NCBI GenBank assembly: GCA_024220505.1
Contig: JAKZZE010000016.1
Coordinates: 186,001 to 250,000 of the forward strand
Direction of reading: 5' to 3'
Origin: Rhizopus arrhizus
Taxonomy: Eukaryota > Mucoromycota > Mucoromycetes > Mucorales > Rhizopodaceae
Length of the DNA: 64,000 bases
The notes beneath the pieces are model-generated. The model ran no database searches. It worked only from the letters and a program-made list of their open reading frames with translations, and was not told the DNA's origin. Both the position numbers and the translations under genes were made by a program. Numbering within the stretch: the first letter of the stretch is position 1; the number at the start of each line of letters is the position of its first letter. Shown in pieces: positions 3,960 through 35,636 of the stretch.

Positions 3960-4763
3960 GTCAGAGCCAAGAGAGAGATCACTGTAGACTTGCATCCGAG
4001 GGGACCGAAGGACAGAGGTCATGTTGGTCAAGAAGTAGTCGATCATACTTTGCTTGACTTGACCACCACGAAAGGACAAGAAGGTAGGCACCCCAGGAGC
4101 GAGAGTCGAGTTCAGAACAGAGAGACCATGTTCTTCACACCAGCGAAGCAGCACCGAACCTCGAGCATTGGCAACGGAATCACCCGTTAGTGCACCAAGA
4201 CGCGCGTTCAGATCACCACAGATGATCGTGTCGTCTGTCAAGGGCAACGAAACCAACACAGAAGAGACCTCGTCGTTGGACAAGGAAGGGGGCAAATACA
4301 GACAGATGAGACGCAAGGAGCGACCCAACCGCAGACCCAGAGCATACTTGGTATGAACCGGGAACTGTACCACAGCCATCGGACACCGAGGAGACACCAG
4401 AGCAGAGACACCTTGAGAGCCACGATAGCTGTTGATCACAGGAGAGCCGTACAGGTTGAACTGGGTCCAAGAGGTACGGATCCTGTGAGGCGGAAGCAAC
4501 CAGGTTTCAGTGATGAACACCAAGGAAAACGACTGGCAGTGACGGAGGAGATCCTCGGCTGTGGATTCTTGAAGCCCATTGGCATTCCACAAGCCGATAG
4601 TGAGCGGTATAGATGAACTTGATGAGGATGAAGGAGTGAATGAACCATGGGAGCCATGAGAACCAAGAGAAACCAAAGGAGAGGAAGGAGTTGACTGATC
4701 TGGGACCATACCAGATGAAGAGACCAAGGATGCACTATAATGACAAGTATTACTACTCATCAT
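3960..4763 (-). pseudogene. LINE-1 ORF2 N-terminus (endonuclease), truncated by gypsy A
   Basis: The first 268 codons of ORF2 remain. They hold the apurinic-type endonuclease signatures LWNANGLQES, ITETWL, CGDLNARLG and MIDYFLTN. The frame meets the gypsy LTR just where LINE-2 and LINE-3 continue into GSDHKLLSLSF, the end of the endonuclease domain. No reverse transcriptase remains in the window. The start ATG overlaps the ORF1 stop codon (TAATG at 4761-4765). Confidence 0.88.
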
Positions 4764-5749
4764 TATAATGATCCAAAGCTGGAACGAGAGGCAGGACGGT
4801 GATGCTCATAGTCATCAAGAACCATGTCGTCGTCGGGTTGATCAGGATGACGAGGGAAGGAGGGACGATCTTGCTTGGCAGACAAGACATCAGAGACAGC
4901 CTCGTCAGACACCATGGCATTAGCCAAAAAGAAGCGCGAGACAGCAACAGCAACAGGATAGCGCAAGCGCTCAAGGGTACGAAGGCAACGCTCATTAGAA
5001 ATGTGCGCCATCTTTTCTTGACGTACCTCCAGAGACGCGGAAGAGAAAGCAGGGTCAGCAACGTTGTCAGGATCCAAAGGGTCGAACTGATCGAGGATCT
5101 TGATCTTTGCTTTTTCAAGCAATGAGACGAGAGCAGGCTTGTACTGGAGGTGTACAAGTAGACCAACAACGGAGTGCGCGGGGAACGAAACATCTAGCAC
5201 CCGCCAGGTGTCAACACCCAGACGACCAAGACGACGACGAGCTTCGGTATATGTCATTTTGCGAGATCTAGGTATGTAGACATAGTCAAAACCTTGCTCA
5301 CCAGACACAGGCTGGAAACCACGAGCAGCAGCGGCACGGCGACGGAGTTTGTTCTTTGTAGAACGAGAAACAACAGTAGCCCAAGACGAGGCAGCAGTAC
5401 CCAAGGAGGGCGAAGAAACGGACTGTTTAGCACCAGCAGGAGCAGCAGCAGAAGAAAGAGCGGTATTTGAACTTGGGGTGCTTGTAGGGACCCCGGCGGT
5501 TTGTGCGGCTAACTGAGCACGCAGAGAAGCAATCTCATTGGCTTGAGATTCATTGGTTTGTACGAGGCGAGCATTCTCACCTCTCAAAGTCTCCAATTCC
5601 AGCTTAAGCTGTTCTAAGGCTGAGAGTCTAGTCGTTACCTCTTGAAGTGCGTGACTGAGATTTTGCACTGTGACTTCGAGCTCGGACGAATTGGGTCCGG
5701 CGGCGGCATTCAGGATTTTGGATCCTCTAGTATTTCTTGTTGTTGACAT
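4763..5749 (-). CDS. LINE-1 ORF1, coiled-coil nucleic-acid-binding-type protein
   Basis: Predicted 328 aa, starting at MSTTRNTRGSK (ATG at 5749); upstream in-frame codons are ignored because no earlier ATG is shared by the three copies. Residues about 25-85 form a leucine-rich heptad segment (coiled coil). An Ala/Ser linker follows, then a basic stretch (KNKLRRRAAAARGF) and a conserved globular part with YVYIPRSR and YTEARRRLGRLGV. I see no CCHC knuckle, unlike the second LINE group in this window. The role as RNA chaperone and particle protein is inferred from its position before an EN-RT ORF2. The stop TAA shares its last base with the ORF2 ATG. It differs from the other two ORF1 copies mostly in the last third. 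Confidence 0.85.
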   Translation of the reverse strand: MSTTRNTRGSKILNAAAGPNSSELEVTVQNLSHALQEVTTRLSALEQLKLELETLRGENARLVQTNESQANEIASLRAQLAAQTAGVPTSTPSSNTALSSAAAPAGAKQSVSSPSLGTAASSWATVVSRSTKNKLRRRAAAARGFQPVSGEQGFDYVYIPRSRKMTYTEARRRLGRLGVDTWRVLDVSFPAHSVVGLLVHLQYKPALVSLLEKAKIKILDQFDPLDPDNVADPAFSSASLEVRQEKMAHISNERCLRTLERLRYPVAVAVSRFFLANAMVSDEAVSDVLSAKQDRPSFPRHPDQPDDDMVLDDYEHHRPASRSSFGSL

Positions 5750-5938
5750 TTGGATGCAAACTTTCAGCAACGATTAAGCAACAAGTATTGAAGGTAGCAG
5801 AATAAGAGTTGAACCAAATAAAAATATAGATCAAAAGGAGTCGATTGATGTAAAAATTGTTGATGGATGGATAGATTTGACAGAGATATCGGCTTGCAAA
5901 AAAAGAGTCAAGTTTACCTTTTAACCAAAAGCGAAAGA

Positions 5939-5953
5939 GGCTTCTTGGTTTAG
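5939..5953 (+). repeat. 15-bp tRNA-Pro target copy (LINE-1/SINE-1 junction)
   Basis: Exact copy of GGCTTCTTGGTTTAG, nucleotides 1-15 of the tRNA-Pro gene at 35565. It separates the LINE-1 5' end from the SINE-1 3' end. Confidence 0.92.
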
Positions 5954-6493
5954 ACGAAACTTTTTTATTTTTATTGGTCAAATATGCAGGCGACATATGT
6001 GTCATTTATTGCTTGACCACAGAACGAACTGGGAAAGCATACAAACTGTTAAGGGGGAAGGGAAGGGAGGGTAAGCAGGGCAATTATTTTAGCTGAAGCG
6101 ACAGACGAAGACTTGGGACAGAGAGAGAGAGACATGCTTCATTAAGCCCGAGGTGGGCATCCTTGCAACGCTGATAATGCTGCTCACCAAACAGCACACA
6201 ACGCAGACCGACCAGAACAGCAGCGGCGTCAAAACCCAGGGAGGAAAGAGAGAACAGAAAGGAATACCGACGGGGACACCGAAAGGGAGGGAAGGTGGAC
6301 CAGATACCCAGCTGGCACGCAACGCAACACACAGGCGGGACACACCGAAAGCCAGAGACGACGCACGTTAAGGAAGTCATGTGACCGTGCGTGGAAGAGA
6401 CGGTGCGAGGAAGGCAGGATTCGAACCTGCATGTCCAGAGGACACTCAACCCATACGGTAGCGCCTTAACCACTACGACAAACACCCACACCT
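5954..6493 (-). mobile_element. SINE-1, tRNA-headed SINE inserted in the tRNA-Pro target
   Basis: A 540-bp element flanked on both sides by the 15-bp target. On the minus strand its 5' end is a tRNA-like head with an A box (TGTCGTAGTGG, 6480-6470) and a B box (GGTTCGAATCC, 6427-6417), typical of a class II pol III promoter. The head resembles a long-variable-arm tRNA but cannot close an acceptor stem, so it is not a functional tRNA. The body has no coding frame I trust. The 3' end reads AATAAAAATAAAAAAGTTTCGT-like sequence, as in the LINE, with a hairpin (GACA/TGTC) at 5992-6003. It is nearly identical to SINE-2. Transcription by pol III and use of the LINE machinery are inferred. Confidence 0.82.
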
Positions 6494-6508
6494 GGCTTCT
6501 TGGTTTAG
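6494..6508 (+). repeat. 15-bp tRNA-Pro target copy (SINE-1/LINE-2 junction)
   Basis: Exact copy of GGCTTCTTGGTTTAG between the SINE-1 5' end and the LINE-2 3' end. Confidence 0.92.
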
Positions 6509-6554
6509 ACGAAAATTTTTTTTATTAATATATATTAGGAGTATATTGACAAGC

Positions 6555-7037
6555 CACTGCAAATAATTGGTGATTTTCAGCGTTATCAGTCATTGGCAGT
6601 CATTTCTAACATCAAAATTTCAACGATTTAAATAACTTTGATTAAACGAAAAAAATTAAAATGCTCTGTATTGCACCTTTTTGAATTTTGAAAAAAGATT
6701 TAGGTGCGAAAAAAATAAAGAAATTTAATAATTTTATTATTTTTTTTGTGGTGTAAGTATTCATAGAGTTATTCATGTTTTAAAAAAGTGTCTTTTTTTT
6801 TTCAAATAGTCTCTTTTTGGAAAGCCTGTTCTCCTCTATCGTTGAAAGACCGATATTTTCTTTTTTTTATTTTTGAGGGCAAAATGCGGAAAACAAAAAC
6901 ACATTGTGATTATTTTGATCAAAAGAATACATATTAGGAAGGCAGTCTGTGATCTTTAGCTTAGTTCATTTGAAGCGTGTAACAGAACGTAACAAAATAG
7001 TTGCGTTTGGGAAAAAAAAAAAAAGAAGCTGAAGAAT

Positions 7038-7081
<44 letters not shown>

Positions 7082-7857
7082 ATAGCAATAAAATGTTACT
7101 TATTCAAATGAAAACAATAACCTAACAGTAAACATGTTTTATAAAAATACAAATGCTTGTACATTATAACAAGAATACGTGTATATTCTAAAAAGAATAA
7201 AAAAAAAAAGAAGCTTTGTTAACATCTTGTTACAAGGCAATTATAATCAATAGATACAAGCACAATTTTTTTGTTTTTCAAGTAAATAGATTGCTTTATT
7301 ATTTTTCATGACATACAATAAAAAGAATATATGTTTTTAAGCTTATATTAGTTCATTACTTACTTTATGTTTACACATGGGTGTAATTTGCCATTAGCCA
7401 TTAGAGATGTTAACATTGCCAACTTTCTTTATCAAAAAACACTTTGCAGCAACAAGCAGTAATATAAGTTTGATATTCTTATAGTTTTATCTGTTGGAAA
7501 GAATAACTTTACTCATGAGGTTCATGTTCGTCATCCATTTGTGTCCCATTAGAAATCCTTAATATAAAAAGAAAAAAAAAAAGAAAAACGACGTTAGACC
7601 TGGTATTATTTTTGTTGTTACAAACTTACATTTTAACCATTGTTGAGTTTTCTTTTATATCTTTTGTATCCTCAATGTTAAATATGTTCTCTGAAACAAA
7701 ACAAGGAAAAAAAAACATTTCTTTAGTACACGTAAAACTGTTACTGTTTAGGAAACGACATCCAAATTTAGTATATTTGCTTTAGTTTTTTTTGATCACG
7801 CATTTTTTTCTATCTTATTCCTCTACTAAATCCTGAATATTATTTTTTTTTTTTGAA
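6555..7857. other. CACTA-1 left subterminal non-coding region
   Basis: AT-rich, with many A or T runs (for example about 7047-7077). No frame I can support. The same sequence, inverted, forms the right end of CACTA-2 (about 28630-29936), so it belongs to the element and probably holds transposase-binding sites and the transposase promoter. Confidence 0.7.
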
Positions 7858-10688
7858 ATGAACGCCACTAACAACAAAGTTAAATGCCAATGCACCAAAT
7901 GCAGCAAATGTCCTGAAGGATTCAGAATGATTGCCAAGAAAACCGCTAATACTCATAAGCGTATTGACAAAGTTGGAGAAGGTACTTTTTTTTAAAGAAA
8001 TGCAGAAAGACTAAAGTGCAATTAAAATAGTTTTGAGACAAAGAAGATTAGAAAATATCTTCGAGCAACCCTCCAGTTCTACCGAAAGAAGCACGTTTGA
8101 AGGTATATTCATAAACACACCCTTTTTTTTTATTAAACAAATTTAGAATTCGACCTTGATGCTGACATGGATGTCGACATGGAAGAAGAAATGACCAACG
8201 ACCAACAATTGGAGTATCTCCTGGTCCTTTACCTTGTGCTTTTTCAAGCAAAGCACCTTTCTGTTGAAGCCGGTGAAGAACTGTTGGCCTTTCTTTCTTT
8301 CTTTGTTCGTGCCCTTGGCCATGGCATGGAGATTCCTACAAAGATCTCCACTGCTCGTGCCATGGTCAATTATTCCTCTGCCAGTAGTGGTGTCTCCCGT
8401 TTCCTTGTCTGTTCTCTTTGTAGAAGTGTTTATGACACGGGAAGTTTGCATACCCGACTATGCCCTTTTGTCAGGTTTGCAAACAACCCCCACAGACAAG
8501 AGCGCCCATGTGGTAATTCACTTTTTGTTGGCAGCAGCCTGAAGCCCGTCCTTGAGTTCCCGTACAACTCAATTGTCGAAACGTTGAAGAAGTTCTTTGT
8601 CCGTCCGAACTTTGAAACAGAAATTGAACAGTGGAGAGGTCGATATGTGGAGGAAGGTGTGTTGTATGACATTTATGATGGTAGAGTCTGGAATGAGATG
8701 GTCGACTCAGCTGGGGAGCCATTTGTGAATAAAAGACGATCATTAATGGTGTCATTGAACGTTGATTGGTTTCAACCTAGTGATGGTATGCATTACTCTT
8801 GCGGTGGTGTATATCTCACTATCAACAACCTTCCAAGGGGTTCCAGGATGAAGGTTTCCAACATCATCCTGGTTGGTATGATTCCTGGGCCTGGCGAGCC
8901 CACGGATGACCAGCTCCAAAATTTCTTGCGACCAATGATTGCAGAGCTGAATACCTTGTACGGAGGTATGATGATGCCAACGTACCAGAACAGAAACGGT
9001 GAGATGGTACGTGTTGCTTTGATGTCCGTTAACTGTGATATACCAGCAGCTCGTAAGGTAGCTGGATTCATGGGTCAATCCGCGCACAAAGCCTGCAACA
9101 AGTGTTCCACTGTGTTTTCGCGAATCAGTACTGGTGCAAATTCAACGAAGCCAGATTTTTCAGACTTTGACGATGAGCATTGGATTCTGCGAAACAATAC
9201 CCAGCAGCGCCAAGAAGCATATGCTTGGCTCAATGCCACTCACATTACACAACAAAGAACCCTGCAGACGGACACAGGAAGTAAATGGAGTGAACTTCAC
9301 CGACTAGAATACTTTGATGTTGTAAGGTTAACAACAGTTGATCCTATGCACAATTTATTTCTAGGTACGCCAAAACGAATGGTTGAAGTTTGGGTAGATC
9401 ACGGGCTTCTTTCTACGGCTGATTTCAAAGCCATGGCTGATGAATCAGCTTCAATTGCTATTCCATCACAGTACTGCAGAATCTCCAAAGGTATGCAACA
9501 AATATAAAAGAATTAATTCTGTGATAAGTCTGAACACTAATTTTTTGTATAAAAAAAAAAAAACAAAAACGAAAAAAAGGCAAGATTGAAAGTACTTTTA
9601 GCAATATGAAATCCGATGAATGGAGAACGTGGTGTGTTGTGCTTTCGCCTTTTCTGTTAAAACAAAGACTAATCGGTGAACATTTCATCAATTGGATACG
9701 ATATGTAGAAGCAGTAAGATTGGTGACTGGTCCTTTGATCACAATTGAAGAAATACACACAGCACATTCATTATTTAAGACCTTTGGCAAGACTTGTGCT
9801 CAACTTTATGGAAAAACAAGTATAACACCAAATATGCATATGCACATGCATTTGAAAGAATGCTTTTTGGACTTTGGTCCCTCTTATGCCTTTTGGCTCT
9901 ATGGTTTTGAACGCTTGAATGGTGATGTCAAAAAGATAAATATCAATTACAAGACAGGCTTCGAAACTACTTATGTCACTATGCTTACACAAACAATACA
10001 TACACAAGATCTTATACATTCATTATCAACACTTATTAATACCAACAACGAAGACATGCTCCTACTACTCAACTTTATAAGGGAAATAGGCGAAGTTACG
10101 AATGACGAGAGTGGTCTAACGCCATTTGATTACGCTCAGTTCATAGACGGACCAAGTCTATTTAACCTGACAATTACTGGTAGTGAGCCTCTGCCACCAA
10201 AATCCCTTCCTTCAAAAACCAACAACAAACAACAAATCTTATGCCCTGAACACTATGAAGTCTTACAAAATTATTATATGGATACCTATGAAACACCTAT
10301 TATGAATACAATTAGTACAATGATACAATCATTTAAGAAAATTAACTTGCTTGGACAACGTTACCAACAATCAGACAGTCATTCATCATCATCATACATT
10401 CAAGCCGTTGTAAATAACCAACTACGAATTGGTCAAATATTATATTTTTTTTCACATTCCTTCAACAATACCACTCATTATTTTGCATTCGTCAATTGGT
10501 ACAGCCATGCGACCCAACATTTTCCCACCTTTGATGGTACTGGCATCCAAGTGTGGAAGAATCAATTTGATCCAGTTACAAGCAGCAATATACTTCCAAT
10601 TTACAGGATTTTCAACCCTGTTGCTATATGTCCATATGTTGATAACCATCTTCTTACTCTCGCTCTGCCAAGAAGAATTTATATGTAA
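7858..10688 (+). CDS. CACTA-1 transposase, tnp2 (Transposase_21) type, four exons
   Basis: Proposed exons 7858-7981, 8031-8102, 8147-9490 and 9580-10688 join in frame to about 882 aa; the three introns (49, 44 and 89 nt) start with GT and end with AG. Visible features: an N-terminal Cys cluster (CQCTKCSKC) followed by His; the tnp2 core with SLNVDWFQP, the NLPRGSRMK block, GMIPGPGEP and DIPAARKVAGF; the family signature VDPMHNLFLG near residue 463; and, across intron 3, a conserved SDEWRTW-type segment. It should cut and rejoin the CACTG termini in the nucleus. Exons 1 and 2 are less certain than 3 and 4. The frame is otherwise uninterrupted, so the element may be autonomous. CACTA-2 lacks nearly all of this gene. 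Confidence 0.86.
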
Positions 10689-10821
10689 CAACTATGCTAA
10701 ATTATTCAAACATTCTTTTATTATTATTATTATTATTTATTTTACTAAAGAATCATTCAATAGACTATTATTGTTATTTTTTTTTGAAATTTTTATTCAA
10801 TTTGCAGAGACAACAAAAAGG

Positions 10822-10856
<35 letters not shown>

Positions 10857-10886
10857 AGGGAGAGAGAGAAAAGAGAAAGTAAACGC

Positions 10887-12161
10887 TTACTGCATAGGAT
10901 TAGCAGCAGCAGAAGAGGAAAAGCCAAGGCCAGGAGAAGAAAAGGCCCAAGAGGGATAATCCTCATGGTCAAGGTTTGTGGGGAACTCCTTGTCGAAGTA
11001 GTCCACCACCCTTCTTGTTCTATTGATGGTGCCTTTTTTCGACAAGGAGTCTCTCCATGCTTTTTGAAGAGAAGCATGGAATTCGTCCACCTGTAGATTA
11101 ATTAAAGGTATATTAGAAAATAAATACTATAACAAAAATACTACTTACTGCTTTACTTCGAAAGAGTGGTCTTTTTACCACAAACACAGGACCATGTTCA
11201 TCCTCAGGGCCATCTTCTTCCTCTGAGGTCCAATCGGCTATCAGAAGCTTTTTTCCAAAAGGAAAACGAGCTTCAAATTCCTCTGGGGCTACATTGTAAG
11301 CATTTCGCCTCATGGCGAGCTTCTAATGTAAAGAAGTAATGTAAGTACTTCAAACACTATATATTTCAATTTTCCAATATTAATTACTTACTGCATGCAC
11401 ACGACTACGACGCGTTGATTCTTCTGACGTAGCCGTCAGCCCCTTACTTTCTCTCACCATGTAGTTGAATTTGTTTCTGACCATGCTGCGCAAGTCAGAA
11501 ACAGTAATGCCAGCAGAAAATGGCTCCTTCTTGGCAGCTGCTACAAGCAAATCTCTGACCTTTGCGTTTTGCTTGTAGCGCAAGACCTCCTTCAGGTCAA
11601 AGGTGATACCCCGAGGGACCAGATGCTCTCTGTAGTACTTCAATATGAAAGCCTATATTTCAAAAAGGGTAAAACAAAAATTTAGTTATTATTTTGCACA
11701 TGCTAATTTAGCTTTTAAATTCAAATTACACTGGTCAAGGCCCTATTCTCTTTGACCTCAGAAGGTTGCTGCTGTGGAGGCTGCTGTGGAGGCTGCTGTG
11801 GAGGCTGCTGTGGAGGCTGCTGCTGCTGCTGTTGCTGCCCTTGTTGTTGTTGTTGCAGCAATTGAGTTAGCTGCTCAATCTTCAGCTCCTGCCGACGTTG
11901 ATTCTCCTCCTGTCGGCGTTGAATCTGCTCCTGCTGCTGCATCTGAGCAAAGATGGCCTCAAGGGTTGGGCCATTTGCAGAAGAGCCAACTGGGCCTTGA
12001 AGGCGAGAAGGCTCAAAGCTGTCAAAAGACGCAACAGCAGTGGGGGCAGGAGAAGAGGACGGGAGAACGGTGGATGATGATCCAGTAATGCTTGAAGATA
12101 TTCTTGCCCTTTTAGGGGCATTACTGGGAACATTGATTGGGGTAGCGAGACGACGAGACAT
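10887..12161 (-). CDS. CACTA-1 accessory gene, four exons, unknown function
   Basis: Exons 12161-11730, 11652-11392, 11322-11149 and 11090-10887 join at codon boundaries (all introns phase 0, GT...AG) to give 356 aa. Exon 1 starts MSRRLATPINV, is Ser/Pro-rich and carries a Gln-rich heptad segment (IQRRQEENQRRQE) followed by a polyGln/PQQ tract. Exons 2-4 are charged and probably globular. I do not recognise the fold. Many CACTA elements carry a second gene for a terminus-binding protein (TnpA-like); by position this is a candidate, but that is inference. It is convergent with the transposase (stops 199 bp apart). The same four-exon structure is intact in CACTA-2. Confidence 0.8.
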
Positions 12162-12802
12162 TTTTTCAAGATAAATTATATAAAAAGGAAGAAAAAAAAA
12201 AACAAGAGTACAAAATAAACTAAAGATGAGCACAAAACAACCTGATACTTTTGTTTGTTCTACAAAAAAAGCGAAGAAAAAAAAGCCTTTGGAGTTAAAG
12301 ATATTACATTTAAATAAAAAAAAAAAAAAAGAAGAAGAAGAAGAGAAAGTTTAAACTGTTTATGAATAGCCTCTCTGAATGTTTCAATAGTTAAACAGTA
12401 TTAAAGAAGACTTATTTTTAATCGATAGTGGGTAACTGTAACACTGGTAAAATGAGGCTATAAAAAAAGTACTTTTTTTTTCCTTTTTTTTTTTTTCTTT
12501 TTTTTTTAAACAAAACATTCTTTCTAAAAGGTAAGTTCTTAATATTATATGTACTCTATTATTGTTCTGATGGTACTTGAACTTTAGTAAAATCGTATTA
12601 GTTGCTTTCTTGATGTTTCAAATGGTCTTTATAAAGTCTTTTTCCCAGGATTATAGTTGCTTCTTCTTTTGCTTGTTAGTATAAGCTTGGCTGCTGTCTT
12701 TTTTTCTTTTTCTTTTTTTTTCTCATGGTCCACCTAAAGCAAGGTGCTATTACTTTTACTATATACTTGATAACTAATAATTATTATAGAGGAGTACTGC
12801 TT

Positions 12803-12850
<48 letters not shown>

Positions 12851-13903: not shown

Positions 13904-13906
13904 AGC

Positions 13907-14127
13907 GATAAATATCATGATAGTCATACTCAAGAACCAAAAAAGAAGAGACAAGAATCAAAAAACACTCGCAGAGCACACAAGAGCGAAAAAAAGGAAA
14001 GAGAAAAGGCCAATGGAGACGCTAACTACTGAGCAACTCGTCAACACCATGGTCTCCTCCGCATCGTGCACTAAAATGGTTTGGCAGTGGGAGGTAGAAG
14101 CCAGAGGGTGGATCGGAGCGCTTGTCA
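13907..14127 (-). other. LINE-2 3' untranslated region (main part)
   Basis: Follows the ORF2 stop on the minus strand. It contains the hairpin GATAAATATC at 13907-13916, shared with LINE-3 and related to hairpins in the SINEs. The last about 43 nt of the LINE lie beyond CACTA-1 at 6509-6551. Confidence 0.75.
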
Positions 14128-25450: not shown

Positions 25451-27024
25451 CACTGCAAATAATTGGAGATATTAAACGTTGTTTTTTAGCATAAATGAGC
25501 GCAAATACGCGAAAGTTAACGCAAATCAACGGAATTTTATTGCTGTTTTAAACGTTTTTCGCGGCAGTTCATTAAGCATTTAATATCTTTTAAGCAAGCA
25601 AGAGGAGGTCGTTTAGCATTCTCTTACCAAAACATTTTTTACGCTTTAATCAACACTAGTCAACGGTTGAGCAACGAATGATACGTTTTAAAACATTACT
25701 TTATATGTCTTTTTGTTCTTTTATCGACCGCTCATATTGCCTTATATACTTCTTCATCGAACACTCATATTGCCTTATATACTTCTTTGTTGACCACTTA
25801 TATTGCCTTATATATTTCTTTATTGACCACTCATATAGCTTATATACTTCTTTATGAACCACTTATATAGCTTTATATACTTCTTTATTGACCATTCATA
25901 TTGCAATAAATATTGCTTTATATACACAAAAAATAGGGATTTTGTTTATAAAAAACAGCTTTTTTTTATTTAAATAAAATAACAATAACAATACATGGTA
26001 TTTCTTTGCTAGTAGCGTTTTAAAAGTGTAATTGACTTACCTAATGTCATCAGGATAGCAGCATCTAATCTAAAAATACATCAATTAATCTCGTGGAACT
26101 CAAAAAAAAATTTTAAAAAAAAAGCCAAGCTCAAGGATTCAGAGACACAAGGATTCAAGGACTTGGGCACTCAAAGCAAAAGAAAAGACATCAGTACTTA
26201 AGAACCAAAGCAAAGACAGAAAAGAGATAGACGAGGCCAAAGCAAAGCAGCATTCATCTATAATAGTTATTAGCTATCGTGTATATATAATGAAAGTAAT
26301 AGTACCTTTATTTAGATGGGCTAAGAGAAAAACCTTGCTAAGCTTTACCAACAAGTATAAAAAAAAAGGAAGCAGAACGCATCTATAGTAAATATTAGCT
26401 ATCGAGTATATAGTAAAAGTAATAGTACCTTGCTTTAGATAGACCATGAGATAAAAAAAAAGAAAAAAAAGACACCAGCCAAGCTTATAGCAACAAGTAA
26501 AAAAAGAAGCAATGATAATCCTGGAAGAGACTTTATAAAGACCATTTAAACTATAAAGAAAGCAACCAACACAAATTTACTAAAGAACAAATACCATAAG
26601 AATAGAAATAGAATATATATAATGTTAAGAACTTACCTTTTAGAAAGAATTGTTTTTTAAAAAAAAAAAAAAAAAAGAAGAAAATAAAAAAGGAAAAAAA
26701 AAAAAAGGAAAAAAAGTACATTTTTATAACTCATTTTACATGGGTTACAATTACCCATTAACGGTTAACAATAAGTTTTCTTTAACACTGTTTAACTATT
26801 GAAACATTCAGAGAGGCTATTCATAAACAGTTTAAATTCTTTTTTTTTTATTTAAATGTAATATCTTTAACACCAAAGACTTTTTTTCTTTGCTTCTTTT
26901 GTAAAATAAATGAAAGTATCACCTTGTTTTGTACTCATCTTCAATTTATTTTGTACCCCTGTTTTTTCTTTTTTTTTTCTTTTTTTTTTTCTTTTTTTTT
27001 TCCTTATATAATTTGTTTTAAAAA
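25451..27024. repeat. CACTA-2 left subterminal region
   Basis: AT-rich counterpart of the CACTA-1 right end: 39-bp-type repeats at about 25700-25930 and the larger related blocks at about 26240-26450. No reading frame I support. Confidence 0.7.
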
Positions 27025-28272
27025 ATGTCTCGTCGTGCTGCCACCCCCATCAACGTTCCCAGTAATGCCCCTAAAAGGGCAAGAATATCTTCAAGCATTA
27101 CTGGATCATCATCCACTGTTGTCTCGTCCTCTTCTCCTGCTCCCACTGCTGTTGGGTCTTTTGACAGCTTTGAGCCTTCTCGCCTGCAAGGCGCAGTTGG
27201 CTCTTCTGCAAATGGCCAAACCCTTGAGGCCATCTTTGCTCAGATGCAGCAGCAGGAGCAGATTCAACGCCGACAGGAGGAGAATCAACGTCGGCAGGAG
27301 CTGAAGATTGAGCAGTTAACGCAATTGCTGCAACAACAGCAACAAGGGCAGCAACAGCAGCAGCAGCCTCCACAGCAGCCTCCACAGCAGCAACCTTCTG
27401 AGGTCAAAGAGAATAAGGCCTCGACAAGTGTAATTTGAATTTAAAAGCTAAATTAGCATGTGCAAAATAATAACTAAATTTTTGTTTTACCCTTTTTGAA
27501 ATATAGGCTTTCATATTGAAGTACTACAAAGAGCATCTGGTCCCTCGTGGTATTACCTTTGACCTGAAGGAGGTCTTGCGCTACAAGCAAAACGCAAAGG
27601 TCAGAGATTTGCTTGTAGCAGCTGCCAAGAAGGAGCCATTTTCTGCTGGCATTACTGTTTCTGACATGCGCAGCATGGTCAGAAACAAATTCAACTACAT
27701 GGTGAGAGAAAGTAAGGGGCTGACGGCTACGTCAGAAGAATCAACGCGTCGTAGTCGTGTGCATGCAGTAAGTAATTAATATTGAAAAATTGAAATATAT
27801 AGTGTTCGAAGTACTTACATTACTTCTTTACATTAGAAGCTCGCCATGAGGCGAAATGCTTACAATGCAGCCCCAGAGGAATTTGAAGCTCGTTTTCCTT
27901 TTGGAAAAAAGCTTCTGATAGCCGATTGGACCTCAGAGGAAGAAGATGGCCCTGAGGATGAACATGGTCCTGTGTTTGTGGTAAAAAGACCACTCTCTCG
28001 AAGTAAAGCAGTAAGTAGTATTTTTGTTATAGTATTTATTTTCTAATATACCTTTAATTAATCTACAGGTGGACGAATTCCATGCTTCTCTTCAAAAAGC
28101 ATGGAGAGATTCCTTGTCGAAAAAAGGCACCATCAATAGAACAAGAAGGGTGGTGGACTACTTCGACAAGGAGTTCCCCACAAACCTTGACCATGAGGAT
28201 TATCCCTCTTGGGCCTTTTCTTCTCCTGGCCTTGGCTTTTCCTCTTCTGCTGCTGCTAATCCTATGCAGTAA
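27025..28272 (+). CDS. CACTA-2 accessory gene, four exons, intact
   Basis: Exons 27025-27429, 27507-27767, 27837-28010 and 28069-28272 give 347 aa in the same phase-0 arrangement as in CACTA-1. It is shorter only in the Gln/Pro tract of exon 1, and otherwise very close. No stop or frameshift is seen although the neighbouring transposase is deleted. Function unknown; a terminus-binding partner for a transposase supplied in trans is one possibility. Confidence 0.8.
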
Positions 28273-28304
28273 GCGTTTACTTTCTCTTTTCTCTTTCCCC
28301 CTCC

Positions 28305-28335
<31 letters not shown>

Positions 28336-29936
28336 CCTCTTTTGTTGTCTGTACAAATTGAATAAAAATTTCAAAAAAAAATAACAATAATAGTCTATTG
28401 AATGATTCTTTAGTAAAATAAATAATAATAATAATAAAAGAATGTTTGAATAATTTAGCATAGTTGTTACATATAAATGCTTCTTGGCAGAGCGAGAGTA
28501 AGAAGGTGATTATCAACATATGGACATATAGCAACAGGGTTGAAAATCCTGTAAATTGGAAGTATATTGTTGCTTGTAACTGGATCAAATTGATTCTTCC
28601 ACACTTGGATGCCAGTAGTGGCGTTCATTTCAAAAAAAAAAATATTCAGGATTTAGTAGAGGAATAAGATAGAAAAAAATGCATGATCAAAAAAAACTAA
28701 AGCAAATATACTAAATTTGGATGTCGGTTCTTAAACAGTAACAGTTTTACGTGTTCTAAAGAATTTTTTTTTTCCCTTGTTTTGTTTCAGAGAACATATT
28801 TAACATTGAAGATACAAAAGATAAAAAAGAAAGCTCAAGTATTGGTCATATGTAAGTTTATAAAAAAAAGGTAATAACCAAGTCTAATGTCAGTTTCTTT
28901 TTTTTTTTTACATTAGGAATTCCTAATGGGACACATTCGGATGACGAAAATGAACCTCATGAGCAAAGTTGTTCTTTTTAACACGATAAAGCTATAAGAA
29001 TATCAAACTTTTATTGTTGCTTGTTGTTAAAAAGCTGTTTTTGATAAAGTTGGTAATGTTGACATCTCTAATGGCTAATGGCTAATGGCTAATGGCAAAT
29101 TACACCAATGTGCAAACATAAAGTAAGTAATGAACCAGTATAAGCTTAAAAACATATATTCTTTTATATTATTTGTCATAAAAAATAATAAAGCACTTTA
29201 TTTACTTGAAAAACAAAAACGCTGTGCTTGTATCTGTCAATTATAACTGCCTTGTAATAAGATGTTATCAAAGCTTCTTTATTTTTTATTCTTTTTAGAA
29301 TATACACGTATTCTTTTGTTATAACATAAAAGCATTTGCATTTTTATAAAACATGTTTACTGTTAGATTATTATTTTCATTTGAATAAGGAACTTTTTAT
29401 TGCTATGCTCTCTTTTTTTTTTTTTTTTTCACTAGGTCTTTTTTTTAACTTTGTCTTTTTTTTTATTTTCTTTTTTTTTTACTAAACGCAACTATTTTGT
29501 TACGTTCTGTTACACGTTTCTAATGAACTAAGCTAAAAATCACAGACTGCCTTCCTATTATGTATTTTTCTGATCAAAATAATCGCAGAGTGCTTTTGAT
29601 ATCCGCATTTTGCCCTCAAAAAGAAAAAAAAGAAAATATCGGTCTTTCAACGATAGAGGAGAACAGGCTTTCCAAAAAAAGACTATTTGAAAAAAAAAGA
29701 CACTTTTTTAAAACATGAATAACTCTATGAATATTTACCCTACAAAAAAATTAATAACATTATTAAATTTCTTTATTTTTTTCGCATCTAAATCTTTTTT
29801 CAAAATTCAAAAAGGTGCAATACAGAGTATTTTAATTTTTTTCGTTTACTCAAAGGTATTCAAATCGTTGATTTTTTGATGTTAGCAATGATTGTCAATG
29901 ACTGAGAACGCTGAAAATCACCAATTATTTGCAGTG
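28273..29936. other. CACTA-2 right region with transposase remnant and subterminal sequence
   Basis: From the left: T-rich spacer, about 170 bp matching the transposase C-terminus (antisense, about 28446-28613), the deletion junction, a few transposase start codons, then the AT-rich subterminal region matching CACTA-1 6555-7870 inverted. A three-fold GGCTAAT repeat is near 29071-29095. Confidence 0.7.
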
Positions 29937-29992
29937 GAGGACACTCAACCCATACGGTAGCGCCTTAACCACTACGACAAACACCCACACCT

Positions 29993-30007
29993 GGCTTCTT
30001 GGTTTAG
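29993..30007 (+). repeat. 15-bp tRNA-Pro target copy (SINE-2/LINE-3 junction)
   Basis: Exact GGCTTCTTGGTTTAG between the SINE-2 5' end and the LINE-3 3' end. Confidence 0.92.
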
Positions 30008-30270
30008 ACGAAGATTTTTATTAATATATATTAGGAGTATATTGACAAGCGATAAATATCATGATAGTCATACTCAAGTACAAAAAGAAAAGACAAGAAA
30101 CAAAAAACACTCGCAGAGCACACAAGAGCGAAAAAAAAGGAAAGAGAAAAGGCCAATGGAGACGCTAACTACTGAGCAACTCGTCAACACCATGGTCTCC
30201 TCCGCATCGTGCACTAAAATGGTTTGGCAGTGGGAGGTAGAAGCCAGAGGGTGGATCAGAGCGCTTGTCA

Positions 30271-33200
30271 TTAGGGAGTAGTAGCAGCAGAGGACTTGTC
30301 AATCCAGACTTGACCTGGCAGAGAAGACGAGTTGTACTCGATGTCAGGATGACAGATCTTGTCAAAGTGACAGAGGATCTGACAAAGAGCGGACCAAAAT
30401 GGCGGACAACGAGCAGAAGCAGAGACAGGAAGCAAGTTCAAGACATAGTCTATGTGGTGACCCACATAACCAGTCGGCGGTACAGGTAGACAGCACCAAA
30501 GAGCAAAAGGAACCAAGGTACAGACCATGAGGTGAGAACGAGAAGTATCGCCAAGACCACAGGAACAGGGAGCAGGCTTGCCTGGGATCCAACCCATGCG
30601 CCATCTAACAAGACGAGACCGGTCAGCACGGGAGGCAGGCAAGTACAGGATGGGATCCACCCGGAGAACAGGACGACAAGCGCGAATCAGAACCTGAGGG
30701 GTGGACTGTAAGAAGCTTTGAAATTGATCTTGACGATACCTTCGCAACCAAGAAGCAAGACGAGAAGACGAAAGAGGAGCATCCGAAGGGTAGTCGAGTA
30801 CGATTTGCCGCTTACGGAGCTGTGTCAGCAATGACGACGGAACAGAAGAGGATAGCAGAGACAAGAGACAGTCATCAGGAAGGCCATTGAATCGAAGGCA
30901 GAACTTCAGAACCAAGGTATCTGCTCGAAATGTCATTGACGGCAGATTGGTGATATGGCGGAGGACGACAGTCGAGGCAGTTCGGTGACCACCGACAAGC
31001 ATTCGAAGACACCGGTCTTGAGCGCGGTTAAGCTCTTCACCGTCCTTTCTTGTAAGTCGAGCAATAGCAAGGCCATACTCGAGCTTAGGACGGATGAAGG
31101 CAGCAAAGAGACGAGAAGAGAGAAGCAGAGTAAAGCCTTGACGGTTAAGGCCCATAGAGTGAAGTTGAGCCATAGCCGCCAAGGTACTTGAAGAGCGATT
31201 CTTTATCATGGCAGAGACAGAGATACCTTTACCATCGAAAGGGACACCAAGATAAGTGAACTCCTCAACAGAGGGAAGATCTTCATCATACAACGACATC
31301 TGAACAAAGCGACTTGAACCTGGAGAAGGTGCATTGAGGACGGCACACTTTGGTGGACTCCACTTGTAACCAAGAGTCAGAGAATGGATCTGTGCTAGGT
31401 CCAGCATATGCCGAACTTCGCTAGCAGACCCAACCAGTGCCACATCATCCGCATACAACAGACTGTTGATGGGTGTGGGCGACAGAGACGAGGAAGACAA
31501 AGCAGCAGTACCAACCAAAGGACCAAAGGGAAGACCATCGGAGACCAGAGCACCAGGACCAGGAGGACCAGAAGGAGACACCGATAACACCGAGGTGGTT
31601 GTTGCAGAAGCAGCAGAACGAAGCAGAGCTGGCAATGTGTTGACATAGATCGAGTACAGGTGAGGACTCAAGACAGAGCCCTGAAGGACACCTGTACTCG
31701 GCACAAACGGATCAGAGACATTGTTCTGCAACAACACAGACACCGAGACATCATCAAACATGTTGGCCAACAAGGACACCAAGGACAGAGGAGCAGAAGA
31801 GGCGAGCATCGATTGCCATATGATACGACGATCGACTGTATCATAGGCTGACTTGATGTCCAGGAAAGCGACCACAGGATAATGATTGTGTCGGCGTCGG
31901 TAAGAGTGCATCAGATCATGGAGACAGAGAGCTTGATCCAATGCACTACGCTGGTGACGGAAACCACCTTGAACTACATCGAGCGGAGGAGAGACATCTT
32001 CAACAAAGGGAAAGAGACACATCTCAAAGAGCTTGCGGACGATGGAGGTCAAGGAGATTGGACGATAGTTCCCTGGCGAGGTAGGATCACCCTTTTTGTG
32101 AATGGGGACCACCTGTGCTTGACGCCAGAGAGAAGGGGTATATGACCACTGGTAGCAGATACTGAGAAGCAAAGAGAGCAGTGGGGCCAGAACAGACTTG
32201 ATGGGGAGGAGCATCTCCGTACGCAAGTGGTCAGGACCAGGAGCTTTACGCAGAGGGAGACGTCGCATCAGTGAACCCACACTGTCAGCAGAGAACGAAG
32301 GCATACCAGGGTCTTGACTATCGAGGTCAAAAGGCACCATACCAGAGACAGAGGGCAGAGGGTCAGGACGCCTTGACGGAAGACCGTCACCAGAGTAGAC
32401 CGAGGCAAGGTGTTGACGCATCGCGTTCGCACCTGCAGCAGGGCCGTCAGGATGAGTAAACCCAACCTGTTGACGTCGTCGGTTCCGAATCACCTTCACC
32501 TTCGACATCGCACGAGCAAGTTCGCCACGGGCCAGAGAGTCACAGAAAGCACGCCAAGAGAGACGCTTAGCAGACTTGAGAGCAGAGCGGAACCGGGCTT
32601 GAGCAGCCTGATGTCGATCCCACCACAAGGCCTTGTCGATGCCAATAGCACGACGCCACTTGCGGTAGTGGTGTTCACGAACATCGGCGAGTTCTTGCAA
32701 GTGCGCATTCCAGAATGGCTTCCATTGGGAAGGTCGAGAAGAGCGAGAGCCAACCGACTTGTCGAGTGCACTATAGATCGCCTCGTTCAGAGTGTCGTTG
32801 AGAGCGTCTATAGGCGGAGCAGCAGAAGGAGGACTTGACTTCAGAGACTTGAGCTGATCAACCAATGGAGAGACCAAGGACTGGAATGAGGCCACGTACA
32901 GACTACAGACATCGGGTTCCTTCAACCGAGAGAGGTTCCATAGCCGACGGGCAGAAGAAGAAGAAGAGAGAACGGGCTGCGATGGATAACCATCAGGGAC
33001 TGCATAGTCAAAGGACAAGGACAACAGTTTATGGTCAGAGCCAAGAGAGAGATCACTGTAGACTTGCATCCGAGGGGACCGAAGGACAGAGGTCGTGTTG
33101 GTCAAGAAGTAGTCGATCATACTTTGCTTGACTTGACCACCACGAAAGGACAAGAAAGTAGGTACCCCAGGAGCGAGAGTCGAGTTCAGAACAGAAAGAC

Positions 33201-33840
33201 CATGTTCTTCACACCAGCGAAGCAGCACCGAACCTCGAGCATTGGCAACGGAATCACCCGTTAGTGCACCAAGACGCGCGTTCAGATCACCACAGATGAT
33301 CGTGTCGTCTGTCAAGGGCAACGAAACCAACACAGAAGAGACCTCGTCGTTGGACAAGGAAGGAGGCAAATACAGGCAGATGAGACGCAAGGAGCGACCC
33401 AACCGCAGACCCAGAGCATACTTGGTATGAACCGGGAACTGTACCACAGCCATCGGACACCGAGGAGACACCAGAGCAGAGACACCTTGAGAGCCACGAT
33501 AGCTGTTGATCACAGGAGAGCCATACAGGTTGAACTGGGTCCAAGAGGTACGGATCCTGTGAGGCGGAAGCAACCAGGTTTCAGTGATGAAGACCAAAGA
33601 GAACGACTGGCAGTGACGGAGGAGATCCTCGGCTGTGGATTCTTGAAGCCCATTGGCATTCCACAAGCCGATTGTGAGCGGAATAGAAGAAGTTGATGAC
33701 GATGACGAAGGAGAGGATGGACCATGGGAGCCATGAGAACCAGAGGAAACCAAAGGAGAGGAAGGAGTTGACTGATCTGGGACCATACCAGATGTAGAGA
33801 CCAAGGATGCATTATAATGACAAGTATTACTACTCATCAT
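30271..33840 (-). CDS. LINE-3 ORF2: endonuclease-reverse transcriptase, 1189 aa
   Basis: Full-length and uninterrupted. Residues about 50-290 are an APE-type endonuclease (LWNANGLQES, ITETWL, CGDLNARLG, SMIDYFLTN, GSDHKLLSLSF); its specificity would explain the choice of the tRNA-Pro site. The RT domain lies at about 540-830 with NYRPISLTS, FLDIKSAYDTVD, GVLQGSVLSP and LLYADD (about 795). Near residue 1095 is a CSCG-x7-H-x4-C motif of the kind seen at the C-terminus of many LINE ORF2 proteins. There is no RNase H that I recognise. The ATG overlaps the ORF1 stop (TAATG), suggesting translation by termination-reinitiation. Clade assignment needs a tree. Confidence 0.93.
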   Translation of the reverse strand: MMSSNTCHYNASLVSTSGMVPDQSTPSSPLVSSGSHGSHGPSSPSSSSSTSSIPLTIGLWNANGLQESTAEDLLRHCQSFSLVFITETWLLPPHRIRTSWTQFNLYGSPVINSYRGSQGVSALVSPRCPMAVVQFPVHTKYALGLRLGRSLRLICLYLPPSLSNDEVSSVLVSLPLTDDTIICGDLNARLGALTGDSVANARGSVLLRWCEEHGLSVLNSTLAPGVPTFLSFRGGQVKQSMIDYFLTNTTSVLRSPRMQVYSDLSLGSDHKLLSLSFDYAVPDGYPSQPVLSSSSSARRLWNLSRLKEPDVCSLYVASFQSLVSPLVDQLKSLKSSPPSAAPPIDALNDTLNEAIYSALDKSVGSRSSRPSQWKPFWNAHLQELADVREHHYRKWRRAIGIDKALWWDRHQAAQARFRSALKSAKRLSWRAFCDSLARGELARAMSKVKVIRNRRRQQVGFTHPDGPAAGANAMRQHLASVYSGDGLPSRRPDPLPSVSGMVPFDLDSQDPGMPSFSADSVGSLMRRLPLRKAPGPDHLRTEMLLPIKSVLAPLLSLLLSICYQWSYTPSLWRQAQVVPIHKKGDPTSPGNYRPISLTSIVRKLFEMCLFPFVEDVSPPLDVVQGGFRHQRSALDQALCLHDLMHSYRRRHNHYPVVAFLDIKSAYDTVDRRIIWQSMLASSAPLSLVSLLANMFDDVSVSVLLQNNVSDPFVPSTGVLQGSVLSPHLYSIYVNTLPALLRSAASATTTSVLSVSPSGPPGPGALVSDGLPFGPLVGTAALSSSSLSPTPINSLLYADDVALVGSASEVRHMLDLAQIHSLTLGYKWSPPKCAVLNAPSPGSSRFVQMSLYDEDLPSVEEFTYLGVPFDGKGISVSAMIKNRSSSTLAAMAQLHSMGLNRQGFTLLLSSRLFAAFIRPKLEYGLAIARLTRKDGEELNRAQDRCLRMLVGGHRTASTVVLRHITNLPSMTFRADTLVLKFCLRFNGLPDDCLLSLLSSSVPSSLLTQLRKRQIVLDYPSDAPLSSSRLASWLRRYRQDQFQSFLQSTPQVLIRACRPVLRVDPILYLPASRADRSRLVRWRMGWIPGKPAPCSCGLGDTSRSHLMVCTLVPFALWCCLPVPPTGYVGHHIDYVLNLLPVSASARCPPFWSALCQILCHFDKICHPDIEYNSSSLPGQVWIDKSSAATTP

Positions 33841-34826
33841 TATAATGATTCAAAGCTAGAGCGAGAGGCAGGACGGTGATGCTCATAGTCATCAAGAGCC
33901 ATGTCTTCAGCCATATCATCGTAATGGCGGGCAGTCTTGGGTCGATCTTCCTTAGCAGACAGAACTTCAGATACTGTCTCATCAGAGACAAGGGCTTGCG
34001 CCAACAAGTAACGAGAGACAGAGACAGCAACAGGATAGCGCAAGCGCTCTAAAGCCTTGCGAGAACGATCATCATTAATCAGTGAGATAGCATGGCTACG
34101 CTCCTCGACAGAAACAGAGTCAAACTTGGGATCGGCCAGGTTGGCAGGGTCAAGTGGATCGAAAGTATCCAAGGTGGGGATCTTGGCCTTTTCGAGCAAG
34201 GACAGAAGAGCAGGCTTGTACTGCAGATGTACGAGCAGACCGACAACAGAGTGAGCAGGATAGCACACATCCAAGATGCGCCAGCTATCCACACCAAGAC
34301 GAGAGAGACGACGACGAGCTTCGGTGTAGGTCATCCTACGAGAGCGAGGTATATAAACATACTCGAAGCCTTGTTCACCAGACACAGGCTGGAAACCACG
34401 AGCAGCAGCGGCACGACGACGGAGTTTGTTCTTTGCAGAACGAGAGACAACAGTAGCCCAAGACGAGGCAGCAGTACCCAAGGAGGGCGAAGGAACGGAC
34501 TCTTTAGCACCGTTAGGAGCGGCAGCAGAAGAAGCAGCGGTACTTGAATTGGGGGTGCTTGTAGGGACCCCGGTAGTTTGTGCGGCCAATTGGGCACGCA
34601 GGGAAGCAATCTCATTGGCTTGAGATTGGGTTGTTTCGGCAAGGCGAGCATTCTCACCTCGCAAAGTTTCAAGCTCTAGCTTGAGCTGTTCAAGAGCAGA
34701 GAGACGAGCAGTGACAGCTTGAAGTGCGTGACTTAGACTCTGAACAGTGACTTCGTGGTCGGACGAATTGTGTCCGGCGGCGGCATTCAGGATTTTGGAT
34801 CCTCTAGTATTTCTTGTTGTTGACAT
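33840..34826 (-). CDS. LINE-3 ORF1
   Basis: Predicted 328 aa from MSTTRNTRGSK. Heptad-rich coiled coil at about 25-85, an Ala/Ser/Thr linker, basic KNKLRRRAAAARGF, then the conserved YVYIPRSRRMTYTEARRRLSRLGV region and an acidic tail (DDMAEDMALDDYEHH). No zinc knuckle. Stop and ORF2 start share one base. Confidence 0.88.
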   Translation of the reverse strand: MSTTRNTRGSKILNAAAGHNSSDHEVTVQSLSHALQAVTARLSALEQLKLELETLRGENARLAETTQSQANEIASLRAQLAAQTTGVPTSTPNSSTAASSAAAPNGAKESVPSPSLGTAASSWATVVSRSAKNKLRRRAAAARGFQPVSGEQGFEYVYIPRSRRMTYTEARRRLSRLGVDSWRILDVCYPAHSVVGLLVHLQYKPALLSLLEKAKIPTLDTFDPLDPANLADPKFDSVSVEERSHAISLINDDRSRKALERLRYPVAVSVSRYLLAQALVSDETVSEVLSAKEDRPKTARHYDDMAEDMALDDYEHHRPASRSSFESL

Positions 34827-35021
34827 TTGGATGCAAACTTTCAGGAATGATTAAGCAACAAGTAGTGAAGATATCAGAATAAGAGTTGAACCAAATAAAA
34901 GTATAGATCAAAAGGCGTCGATTGATGTAAAAATTGTTGATGGATGGATAGATTTGACAGAGATATCGGCTTTCCAAAAAAGAGTCAAGTTTACCTTTTT
35001 AACCAAAAGCGAAAGAAAAGT

Positions 35022-35036
35022 GGCTTCTTGGTTTAG
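35022..35036 (+). repeat. 15-bp tRNA-Pro target copy (LINE-3/SINE-3 junction)
   Basis: Exact GGCTTCTTGGTTTAG between the LINE-3 5' end and the SINE-3 3' end. Confidence 0.92.
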
Positions 35037-35564
35037 GTTAAAGATTTTATATTTTTATTGGATAATTGCAGGCGACAAATATGTCATTATTGCTATCCAC
35101 AGTGATAAACTGGAAAGCATACAAACTATTATGGGGGAGGAGGGAAAGGAAGAAAGAAGGAACGGATTATTATTGGGGGGAGCTGGAACCAGAGACGAAG
35201 ACTTGAGGCAGGAACAGAACGCGCTTCATTAAGCCCGGGCTGGGCATCCCGGCACCGCGGACCAACAACGCTCGACAAGCAACCGACGCAGACCAACCGA
35301 CCAGAACAGCAGTGGCGTTAAAACCAGTATTATCGTCAAGAGCGCACACCAAAGTCCCCCGAAAGGGAAGGAAAGTAGACAGATGCTCAGCTGCTACGCA
35401 ACGCAACACACAGGCGGAGAAACAAAAGTGCTTGATGCACTCGGCAAACAGAACATGTAGAGGGGCAGGGAAGGGATAGATCCGAAGATCCTATCAGGGG
35501 TCGAACTTGCGACCACACCAATAATAGTCAGACGCTCTACCGACTGAGCTACATCCACATCCCC
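35037..35564 (-). mobile_element. SINE-3, second SINE family with a different tRNA head
   Basis: 528 bp directly upstream of the intact tRNA-Pro, bounded by the 15-bp target on both sides. Its minus-strand 5' head has a near-perfect A box (TAGCTCAGTCGG, 35551-35540) and a B box with one mismatch (AGTTCGACCCC, 35507-35497). The head clearly derives from another tRNA than the one in SINE-1 and SINE-2. The body shares patches with SINE-1/2 (CACACAGGCGG, the GGGCATCC region, GACCAGAACAGCAG). The 3' hairpin GACA/TGTC is at 35074-35085, 37 nt from the 3' end. Confidence 0.82.
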
Positions 35565-35636
35565 GGCTTCTTGGTTTAGTGGTATAATTCTCGCTTAGGG
35601 TGCGAGAGGTCCCGGGTTCGATTCCCGGAGAAGCCC
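35565..35636 (+). tRNA. tRNA-Pro (anticodon AGG)
   Basis: 72 nt and intronless. The acceptor stem GGCTTCT pairs with AGAAGCC, the discriminator is C (usual for eukaryotic tRNA-Pro), the anticodon stem CTCGC/GCGAG closes the loop TTAGGGT (anticodon AGG), and the T arm CCGGG-TTCGATT-CCCGG is perfect. The A box TGGTTTAGTGG spans the insertion point (between nt 15 and 16) and is whole. This is the only recognisable host gene and the apparent landing site of the whole LINE/SINE array. Confidence 0.95.

Follow-up and report, generated by a model that had tools for sequence, protein, structure and literature searches.

Among long interspersed nuclear elements (LINEs) related to the NeSL clade, NeSL-1_TV is described as specific for the proline transfer RNA (tRNA-Pro) gene, and two planarian families, LIN15_SM and LIN25_SM, as specific for tRNA-Arg and tRNA-Glu, respectively (PMC4640811, in the sections available). 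In Dictyostelium, TRE5 elements insert ∼40 to 54 bp upstream and TRE3 elements 40 to 150 bp downstream of tRNA genes (PMC5911963, in part), and in Rhizopus oryzae, Ty3 elements co-localise with tRNA genes and LINEs are put at 3.78% (PMC2699053, in part). Here, we analysed a 64,000-nucleotide (nt) stretch of Rhizopus arrhizus DNA, called the window below (assembly GCA_024220505.1, contig JAKZZE010000016.1, positions 186,001 to 250,000), in which LINEs and short interspersed nuclear elements (SINEs) form a tandem array at a tRNA-Pro gene. A sequence-only reading that had first described the array named the TRE elements and the LINEs of rDNA and telomeres as precedents; it placed TRE elements rightly near tRNA genes, but its list was incomplete, given the tRNA-specific families above. 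With a probability of roughly 0.9, we consider the array to be the work of its LINE family, LINE-1, by target-primed reverse transcription at one fixed site inside tRNA genes, together with SINEs that such LINEs mobilise.

Between 3960 and 35564, the minus strand carries three LINE and three SINE copies in head-to-tail order. The 15-mer GGCTTCTTGGTTTAG stands at the junctions, in six exact copies (5939, 6494, 24946, 29993, 35022 and 35565) versus 0.14 expected from shuffles, and the count in the window stays at six when two mismatches are allowed. The final copy is the start of an intact tRNA-Pro(AGG) gene. In all of this the sequence-only reading was accurate: it had described three LINEs alternating with three SINEs on the minus strand, identical junctions at these six positions, and a last junction that opens an intact tRNA-Pro(AGG), and we located every copy where it had placed it. 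Counted from the tRNA along the minus strand, the order is SINE-A, a complete LINE, a split SINE-B, a twice-split LINE, a complete SINE-B, and a LINE without its 3′ part, as follows.

35565 to 35636, plus strand: intact tRNA-Pro(AGG), the target of the array, called by both ARAGORN and Rfam; nt 1 to 14 are GGCTTCTTGGTTTA.
35037 to 35564, minus strand: SINE-A, 528 bp, putatively tRNA-like head adjoining the tRNA, tail ...AAAATCTTTAAC(C).
35022 to 35036, plus strand: junction, tRNA-Pro nt 1 to 14 plus G.
30008 to 35021, minus strand: LINE-1, complete, 5014 bp, both open reading frames (ORFs) open.
33840 to 34850, minus strand: ORF1 of this LINE-1, 336 amino acids from stop to stop.
30271 to 33849, minus strand: ORF2 of this LINE-1, about 1190 amino acids, with apurinic-type endonuclease, reverse transcriptase and a C-terminal Cys/His motif (by eye).
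29993 to 30007, plus strand: junction, tRNA-Pro nt 1 to 14 plus G.
24961 to 29992, minus strand: SINE-B, split by a CACTG-ended DNA transposon at 25451 to 29936 with a 3-bp duplication, GAG.
24946 to 24960, plus strand: junction, tRNA-Pro nt 1 to 14 plus G.
6509 to 24945, minus strand: second LINE-1 copy, in pieces at 6509 to 6554, 13904 to 16421 and 22496 to 24945.
16422 to 22495, plus strand: Ty3/gypsy long terminal repeat (LTR) element inside that LINE, with a 5-bp duplication, GAGAC.
6555 to 13903, plus strand: CACTG...CAGTG DNA transposon inside that LINE, tnp2-type transposase at 8137 to 9507, with a 3-bp duplication, AGC.
6494 to 6508, plus strand: junction, tRNA-Pro nt 1 to 14 plus G.
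5954 to 6493, minus strand: SINE-B, 540 bp, tail ...AAAAAGTTTCGT(C).
5939 to 5953, plus strand: junction, tRNA-Pro nt 1 to 14 plus G.
3960 to 5938, minus strand: first LINE-1 copy, nt 6 to 1988 only, 3′ part absent.

Since the nested elements have duplications of their own (GAG, AGC and GAGAC), they inserted later than the LINEs and SINE they split. The strict alternation of LINE and SINE is peculiar to the window array; the Pro array at C8:1174214-1189268 has three consecutive LINE-sized steps.

Searches of the 50.26-Mb assembly (in which C and L handles denote places) found at least 50 copies of the junction 15-mer and seven tRNA-Pro genes, identical to one another. A LINE or SINE adjoins all seven (SINE-B at four, a LINE at two and SINE-A at one), with 8 extra nt before the element in one case. 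LINE ends without the Pro copy pointed to tRNA-Gly(TCC), Val(AAC), Ala(TGC), Asp, His, Gly(GCC), and Gln(TTG). A degenerate 3′-junction pattern, built from the junctions known by then, matched 90 places, versus 1 for the reversed pattern used as a control: 37 Pro, 19 Asp, 14 Gly(TCC), 11 Ala, 4 His, 3 Val, and two found once each, of which one is a short relic. A count blind to the flanks, using a motif within the LINE 3′ end with up to 3 mismatches, gave 55 places, 47 of which coincide with junctions matched by the pattern. LINE 3′ ends lie at copies of a tRNA start in 52 of the 55 (23 Pro, 8 Ala, 8 Asp, 8 Gly, 3 His, and 2 Val), and the copy comprises the full nt 1 to 14 in 51 of these 52, three being inferred across a nested transposon. 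The eight LINE ends missed by the pattern include a full His copy next to which one element base is changed (L041), one at Gly(GCC) (L042), and an Asp copy ending at nt 11 (L009). Three more of the eight, on C1, C4, and C38, are interrupted by other DNA, and there the tRNA junction lies ∼1.65 kb farther out; the last two, at C34:1196208 and C18:416242, were placed at no tRNA start. SINE-B ends are at tRNA-start copies in 35 of 36 cases (33 pattern matches, a Pro copy with a changed base in L045, and one in the C20 Pro array); the 36th is damaged at its 3′ end and yet abuts tRNA-Asp (L046, L079).

These counts bear out the earlier proposal that LINE and SINE are site specific and strike the same position inside the tRNA coding sequence repeatedly. 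They do not bear out tRNA-Pro as the specific target. Elements do adjoin every tRNA-Pro gene found, but other isotypes are used too: 23 of the 55 LINE 3′ ends are at tRNA-Pro copies versus 29 at other tRNA starts. We therefore rejected tRNA-Pro specificity; because LINE ends also sit at Ala, Asp, Gly, His, and Val, tRNA-Pro is one target among many. A second family, LINE-B (∼5.3 kb), adjoins tRNA-Lys(TTT) with a copy of Lys nt 1 to 14 at its far end, and its ORF2 is 41% identical to that of LINE-1.

The junctions at other isotypes define the length of the duplication. The tRNA-Gly(TCC) gene reads ...GTTTAATGG, with A at nt 15, and its distal junctions read ...GTTTAG and then the element; because they carry G despite A15, the 15th base comes from the element and the duplication is nt 1 to 14. 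The degenerate pattern requires that G, and none of the eight LINE ends it missed, one of which was not resolved, reads as Gly(TCC) with A. In the LINE-B junctions listed for Lys, Phe, and Met, T comes after ...GCTCA, where the genes read there have G. The 15-bp junction first reported is thus exact as a sequence in the window, but only 14 bp of it are duplicated target. Element ends fall exactly at nt 1 in 25 of 37 cases, LINE-B included, and two tRNA-Gly(TCC) genes without such an element represent empty sites, one having a CACTG-type transposon end ∼60 nt upstream.

A duplication of nt 1 to 14 implies a cut after A14 and a gene restored each time. All tRNAs have A14, and the stretch before it does not vary in length, so that one stagger would always reach the mature 5′ end. 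We infer from element anatomy that the LINE endonuclease nicks the sense strand after A14 and that the 3′-OH at the nick primes cDNA synthesis from the 3′ end of the element. A second cut, on the opposite strand, would fall 14 bp upstream, where the mature tRNA begins. The sequences themselves show what results: nt 1 to 14 are duplicated, the tRNA sequence is restored, and the site is present again. Repeated rounds then build an array, into which SINEs would be mobilised by such LINEs.

LINE-1 is an APE-type (apurinic-type endonuclease) non-LTR retrotransposon, as seen from its endonuclease and reverse transcriptase domains, its duplications, and its 5′-truncated copies (in L059 a LINE that abuts nt 1; the SINEs of L049 and L134 are truncated as well). 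ORF2 matched the Pfam endonuclease families PF14529 (2.1e-11) and PF03372 (1.4e-6) and the reverse transcriptase family PF00078 (3.3e-24). Compared with Pfam, ORF2 contained no endonuclease family beyond the apurinic type, the restriction-like endonuclease of the NeSL type being absent; ORF1 gave weak matches only, with nothing above the cutoff, and no transposase family matched either ORF. The words GD, SDH, and ADD, which span both domains and which we take to be catalytic, are invariant in 13 aligned proteins. The named relatives come from Rhizopus, Mucor, Phycomyces, Umbelopsis, Cokeromyces, and Dichotomocladium, with a LINE protein of R. delemar as the closest (87% identity across 89% of the query), which points most probably to a Mucorales host. 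Over its 5014 bp, the window copy at 30008 to 35021 does not differ from a copy at tRNA-Gly(TCC) (L001-L002).

The SINEs of the window, two SINE-B and one SINE-A, belong to families found at 36 and 25 places in the genome, respectively. The head of SINE-A contains A-box- and B-box-like words by eye and had no match in Rfam; in the head of SINE-B, ARAGORN called a tRNA-Leu in L079, whereas Rfam gave 19 bits only. A 3′ tail held in common with a LINE would mark a SINE-LINE partnership, and tail likeness of this kind was found: of 300 shuffles, the score was reached by 2 for SINE-B against LINE-1, 0 for SINE-A against LINE-1, and 1 for SINE-A against LINE-B, versus 235 for SINE-B against LINE-B.

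Targets appear to be divided by the base at nt 11, in the D-stem. Upstream flanks were read for 86 tRNA genes, 57 with T11 (49 from isotype searches, plus five Gly(TCC) and three Gln from an Rfam-scored list) and 29 with C11 (Lys, Met, Phe, Trp, Asn, Arg, and Val(TAC), sampled from the Rfam-scored list, 63 of 2878 candidates), an element counting as adjoining when ≤15 nt from nt 1. LINE-1, SINE-A, or SINE-B adjoins 32 of the 57 T11 genes versus none of the 29 sampled C11 genes (Fisher p 3.6e-8), with occupancy of 7/7 for Pro, 3/3 for Ala, 8/12 for Asp, 3/5 for Gly(TCC), 3/5 for His, 4/10 for Val(AAC), 3/12 for Gly(GCC), and 1/3 for Gln. Judged by their flanks, LINE-1 and SINE-B appear to use the T11 tRNAs Pro, Gly, Asp, Ala, Val, His, and Gln, and LINE-B and SINE-A to insert at that position chiefly in tRNAs with C11. 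Among the genes sampled, 4/29 with C11 and 1/57 with T11 have LINE-B beside them (p 0.042); among the junctions listed in which the element contributes its T, 11/11 follow GCTCA. C11 targets for SINE-A were suggested by the likeness of its tail to that of LINE-B, although the LINE-1 tail resembles it too. Junctions were read for 20 of the 25 SINE-A places: 8 follow GGTCGCTTAGCTCA, 9 follow GGGGATGTAGCTCA, and the rest are one damaged ...GTAGCTCA, one Gly(GCC), and one TCCTCAATGGTCCA. The other five comprise two at Pro (the window and L028), two assigned by position to the C32 and C40 Pro arrays, and one more at TCCTCAATGGTCCA. That SINE-A resides mostly in Pro arrays was considered and rejected, the majority adjoining C11 tRNAs.

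A pattern for the tail of the SINE-A/LINE-B type matched 116 junctions, versus 1 in the control; among 100 of them listed, 66 have GGTCGCTTAGCTCA, many ∼4.86 kb apart. This spacing suggests that a third LINE family probably lies behind the ∼4.86-kb steps. Such steps, at a tRNA beginning GGTCGCTTAGCTCA, form long arrays on C3, C12, C18, C24, and C31.

Short words at LINE 5′ ends may record where an element came from. GCGTTCTT, which is tRNA-Gly nt 1 to 8, stands between a LINE end and tRNA-Pro; GGCTT(GC), with tRNA-Pro nt 1 to 5, precedes tRNA-Gly beside the LINE that is identical to the window copy at tRNA-Pro; and T+GGCTTC, with tRNA-Pro nt 1 to 6, precedes an Asp junction. Other gaps, such as 13 nt in L129 and 6 nt in L144, hold no recognised tRNA start. 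From these cross-isotype tags, few and short as they are, the simplest reading would be that transcription of the element begins within the antisense tRNA of its source locus, so that the RNA brings the label with it. We tentatively go further, rating it as possible though somewhat short of an even chance, and picture a guild in which two SINE families and at least two LINE families, probably three, divide tRNA genes by the D-stem (T11 versus C11), all cutting after A14 with a 14-bp stagger that restores the gene from its first mature nucleotide. With element RNA starting inside the antisense tRNA, the tRNA gene would then serve the element twice, as a target that is renewed and as a portion of its promoter.

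Whether arrays such as that in the window grew by insertion or by copying in place was judged from LINE 5′ ends compared by local alignment, as copies L150 and L157 carry other DNA. The comparison covered 33 copies, of which 23 came from six tRNA-Pro arrays and 10 from other tRNA loci. For 30 of them the nearest relative sits in a different array, at up to 100% identity and in several cases at another isotype, and for 3 in their own array; copies of one array share 90.7% identity (48 pairs), no more than copies of different arrays (90.6%, 480 pairs). Nearest relatives being mostly in other arrays, the arrays appear to have grown mainly by serial insertion. A single insertion whose LINE-SINE unit was then multiplied locally, by tandem duplication or unequal crossing-over, would agree with the identical junctions within the window array, with one neighbouring pair of copies that are mutually closest (99.4%), and with one further copy whose nearest relative is in its own array, and mixed or orphan arrays show that recombination happens. 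However, the order of LINE-sized and SINE-sized steps varies among arrays, and the local-alignment comparison largely refutes such duplication, which we hold to be very improbable as the origin of the arrays. An assembly artefact is next to negligible: errors are common where repeats are assembled, and several of the arrays are found at contig ends, but insertions occur at 7/7 tRNA-Pro genes found and many others, in copies 81 to 100% identical and with different nested transposons.

A further possibility is that the elements are guided by the RNA polymerase III (Pol III) machinery, as TRE5-A is, and do not themselves read the tRNA sequence. The 52 of 55 LINE ends at tRNA starts, a cut inside the A box, and LTR-like blocks elsewhere in the genome that also end near the tRNA transcription start are compatible with this idea. 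Yet the insertion point is exact to the nucleotide, even the stray LINE at C18:416242 comes after ...TGTA, and LINE-1 spares the 29 sampled C11 genes, although all tRNA genes share the same Pol III factors. We regard Pol III guidance by itself as unlikely; sequence reading and Pol III targeting may be combined.

Several observations weigh against target-primed insertion by LINE-1 at one site in tRNA genes as a complete account. Three LINE ends do not fit: one at C18:416242, where no tRNA was found and its 5′ side was not found, one at a tRNA-like 15-mer of no assigned isotype (C38:1512014), and one, interrupted, that was not placed at any tRNA start (C34:1196208). No LINE-1 or SINE adjoins 25 of the 57 T11 genes, with Gly(GCC) and Gln the sparsely occupied cases noted above, and the nt-11 split is weak for LINE-B and blurred by SINE-A at T11 genes. 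Insertion of new copies beside the tRNA would be expected to leave the older ones farther out, and this order is seen only in part: among the copies read, the one nearest the tRNA has a relative at least as close as that of the farthest copy in 5/6 arrays, with a within-array permutation p of 0.0084, but the overall rank correlation is −0.31 (p 0.15). Recombination also acts, as a SINE-B in L010 (about 6600 to 7150) lies between an Ala copy and an Asp copy, and the C26 Pro array (C26:604258-610337) has no tRNA-Pro gene. The tRNA itself is presumed to be active.

Other elements crowd the same regions. Blocks common to unrelated tRNAs (L106, L108, L109, L114, L117, L124, L125, L128, L132, L136, L139, L142, and others) end ...CA ∼10 nt before nt 1, by eye, and resemble LTR ends set at the Pol III start. 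We considered them as native Pol III promoters and rejected this, as they recur before unrelated tRNAs, many ending in that way and others being ends of further element families (by eye). About 9 to 11 nt matching a SINE or LINE end remain between block and tRNA in L114, L092, and L117, so the blocks probably came later. The LINE 5′ end might conceivably mimic an upstream tRNA promoter. LINEs and SINEs have been struck time and again by CACTG-ended transposons whose inverted ends are similar (6555 to 13903, 25451 to 29936, and many loci); several of these insertions directly follow GATATC(G) in the LINE 5′ region. LINE copies are also interrupted by a DNA element whose inverted ends read CAGTAGCGGACAAAACTGG; it measures ∼1.63 kb in L012, L015, and L048, and single ends occur in L013, L021, L044, L080, and L175. 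At C28:13728 there is a tRNA-Pro junction copy with no tRNA-Pro gene found beside it. Other LINE-like ORFs of the window, at 50852 to 53017 (endonuclease and reverse transcriptase domains) and 56476 to 59988, have no 15-mer copy near.

Essential genes are struck here repeatedly by a retrotransposon with little visible damage, and because each duplication makes the gene whole again, the supply of target sites is not exhausted. The system offers a natural case of exact insertion at tRNA genes and a simple test of endonuclease discrimination among tRNA classes via a few D-stem bases. In the literature searched, which left most subscription journals outside, we recognised no paper that describes an apurinic-endonuclease LINE within tRNA genes, the use of several isotypes at one position, or LINE/SINE arrays at such a site. 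An apurinic-endonuclease LINE that inserts within tRNA genes of many isotypes, has SINE partners, and forms arrays that can be renewed looks new. The Ty3 elements of Rhizopus oryzae are from a Mucorales fungus too, but there it is Ty3 elements, not LINEs, that are linked to tRNA genes (PMC2699053, in part). Dada DNA transposons also occupy fixed places inside tRNA genes, and small nuclear RNA (snRNA) genes, but have a DDE transposase and a tRNA of their own for each family (PMC3706591, in the text available), whereas the LINE-1 ORFs match no transposase family. Utopia and Keno, at U2 snRNA genes, are LINEs with fixed sites in small RNA genes, occasionally tandem and with two families at one site; their target is another, and a SINE pair is not mentioned in the available sections (PMC4640811). 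TRE5 and TRE3 are, like LINE-1, apurinic-type endonuclease LINEs tied to tRNA genes, TRE5 lying antisense to the tRNA, but they insert outside the gene (PMC5911963, in part), whereas the junction here lies after nt 14, inside the coding sequence. The NeSL-related LINEs share tRNA-gene specificity, one even for tRNA-Pro, and are grouped with restriction-like-endonuclease LINEs that have one target each (PMC4640811, in part); in R. arrhizus, by contrast, an apurinic-type endonuclease LINE uses at least seven isotypes at one cut position, with SINE partners and in arrays.

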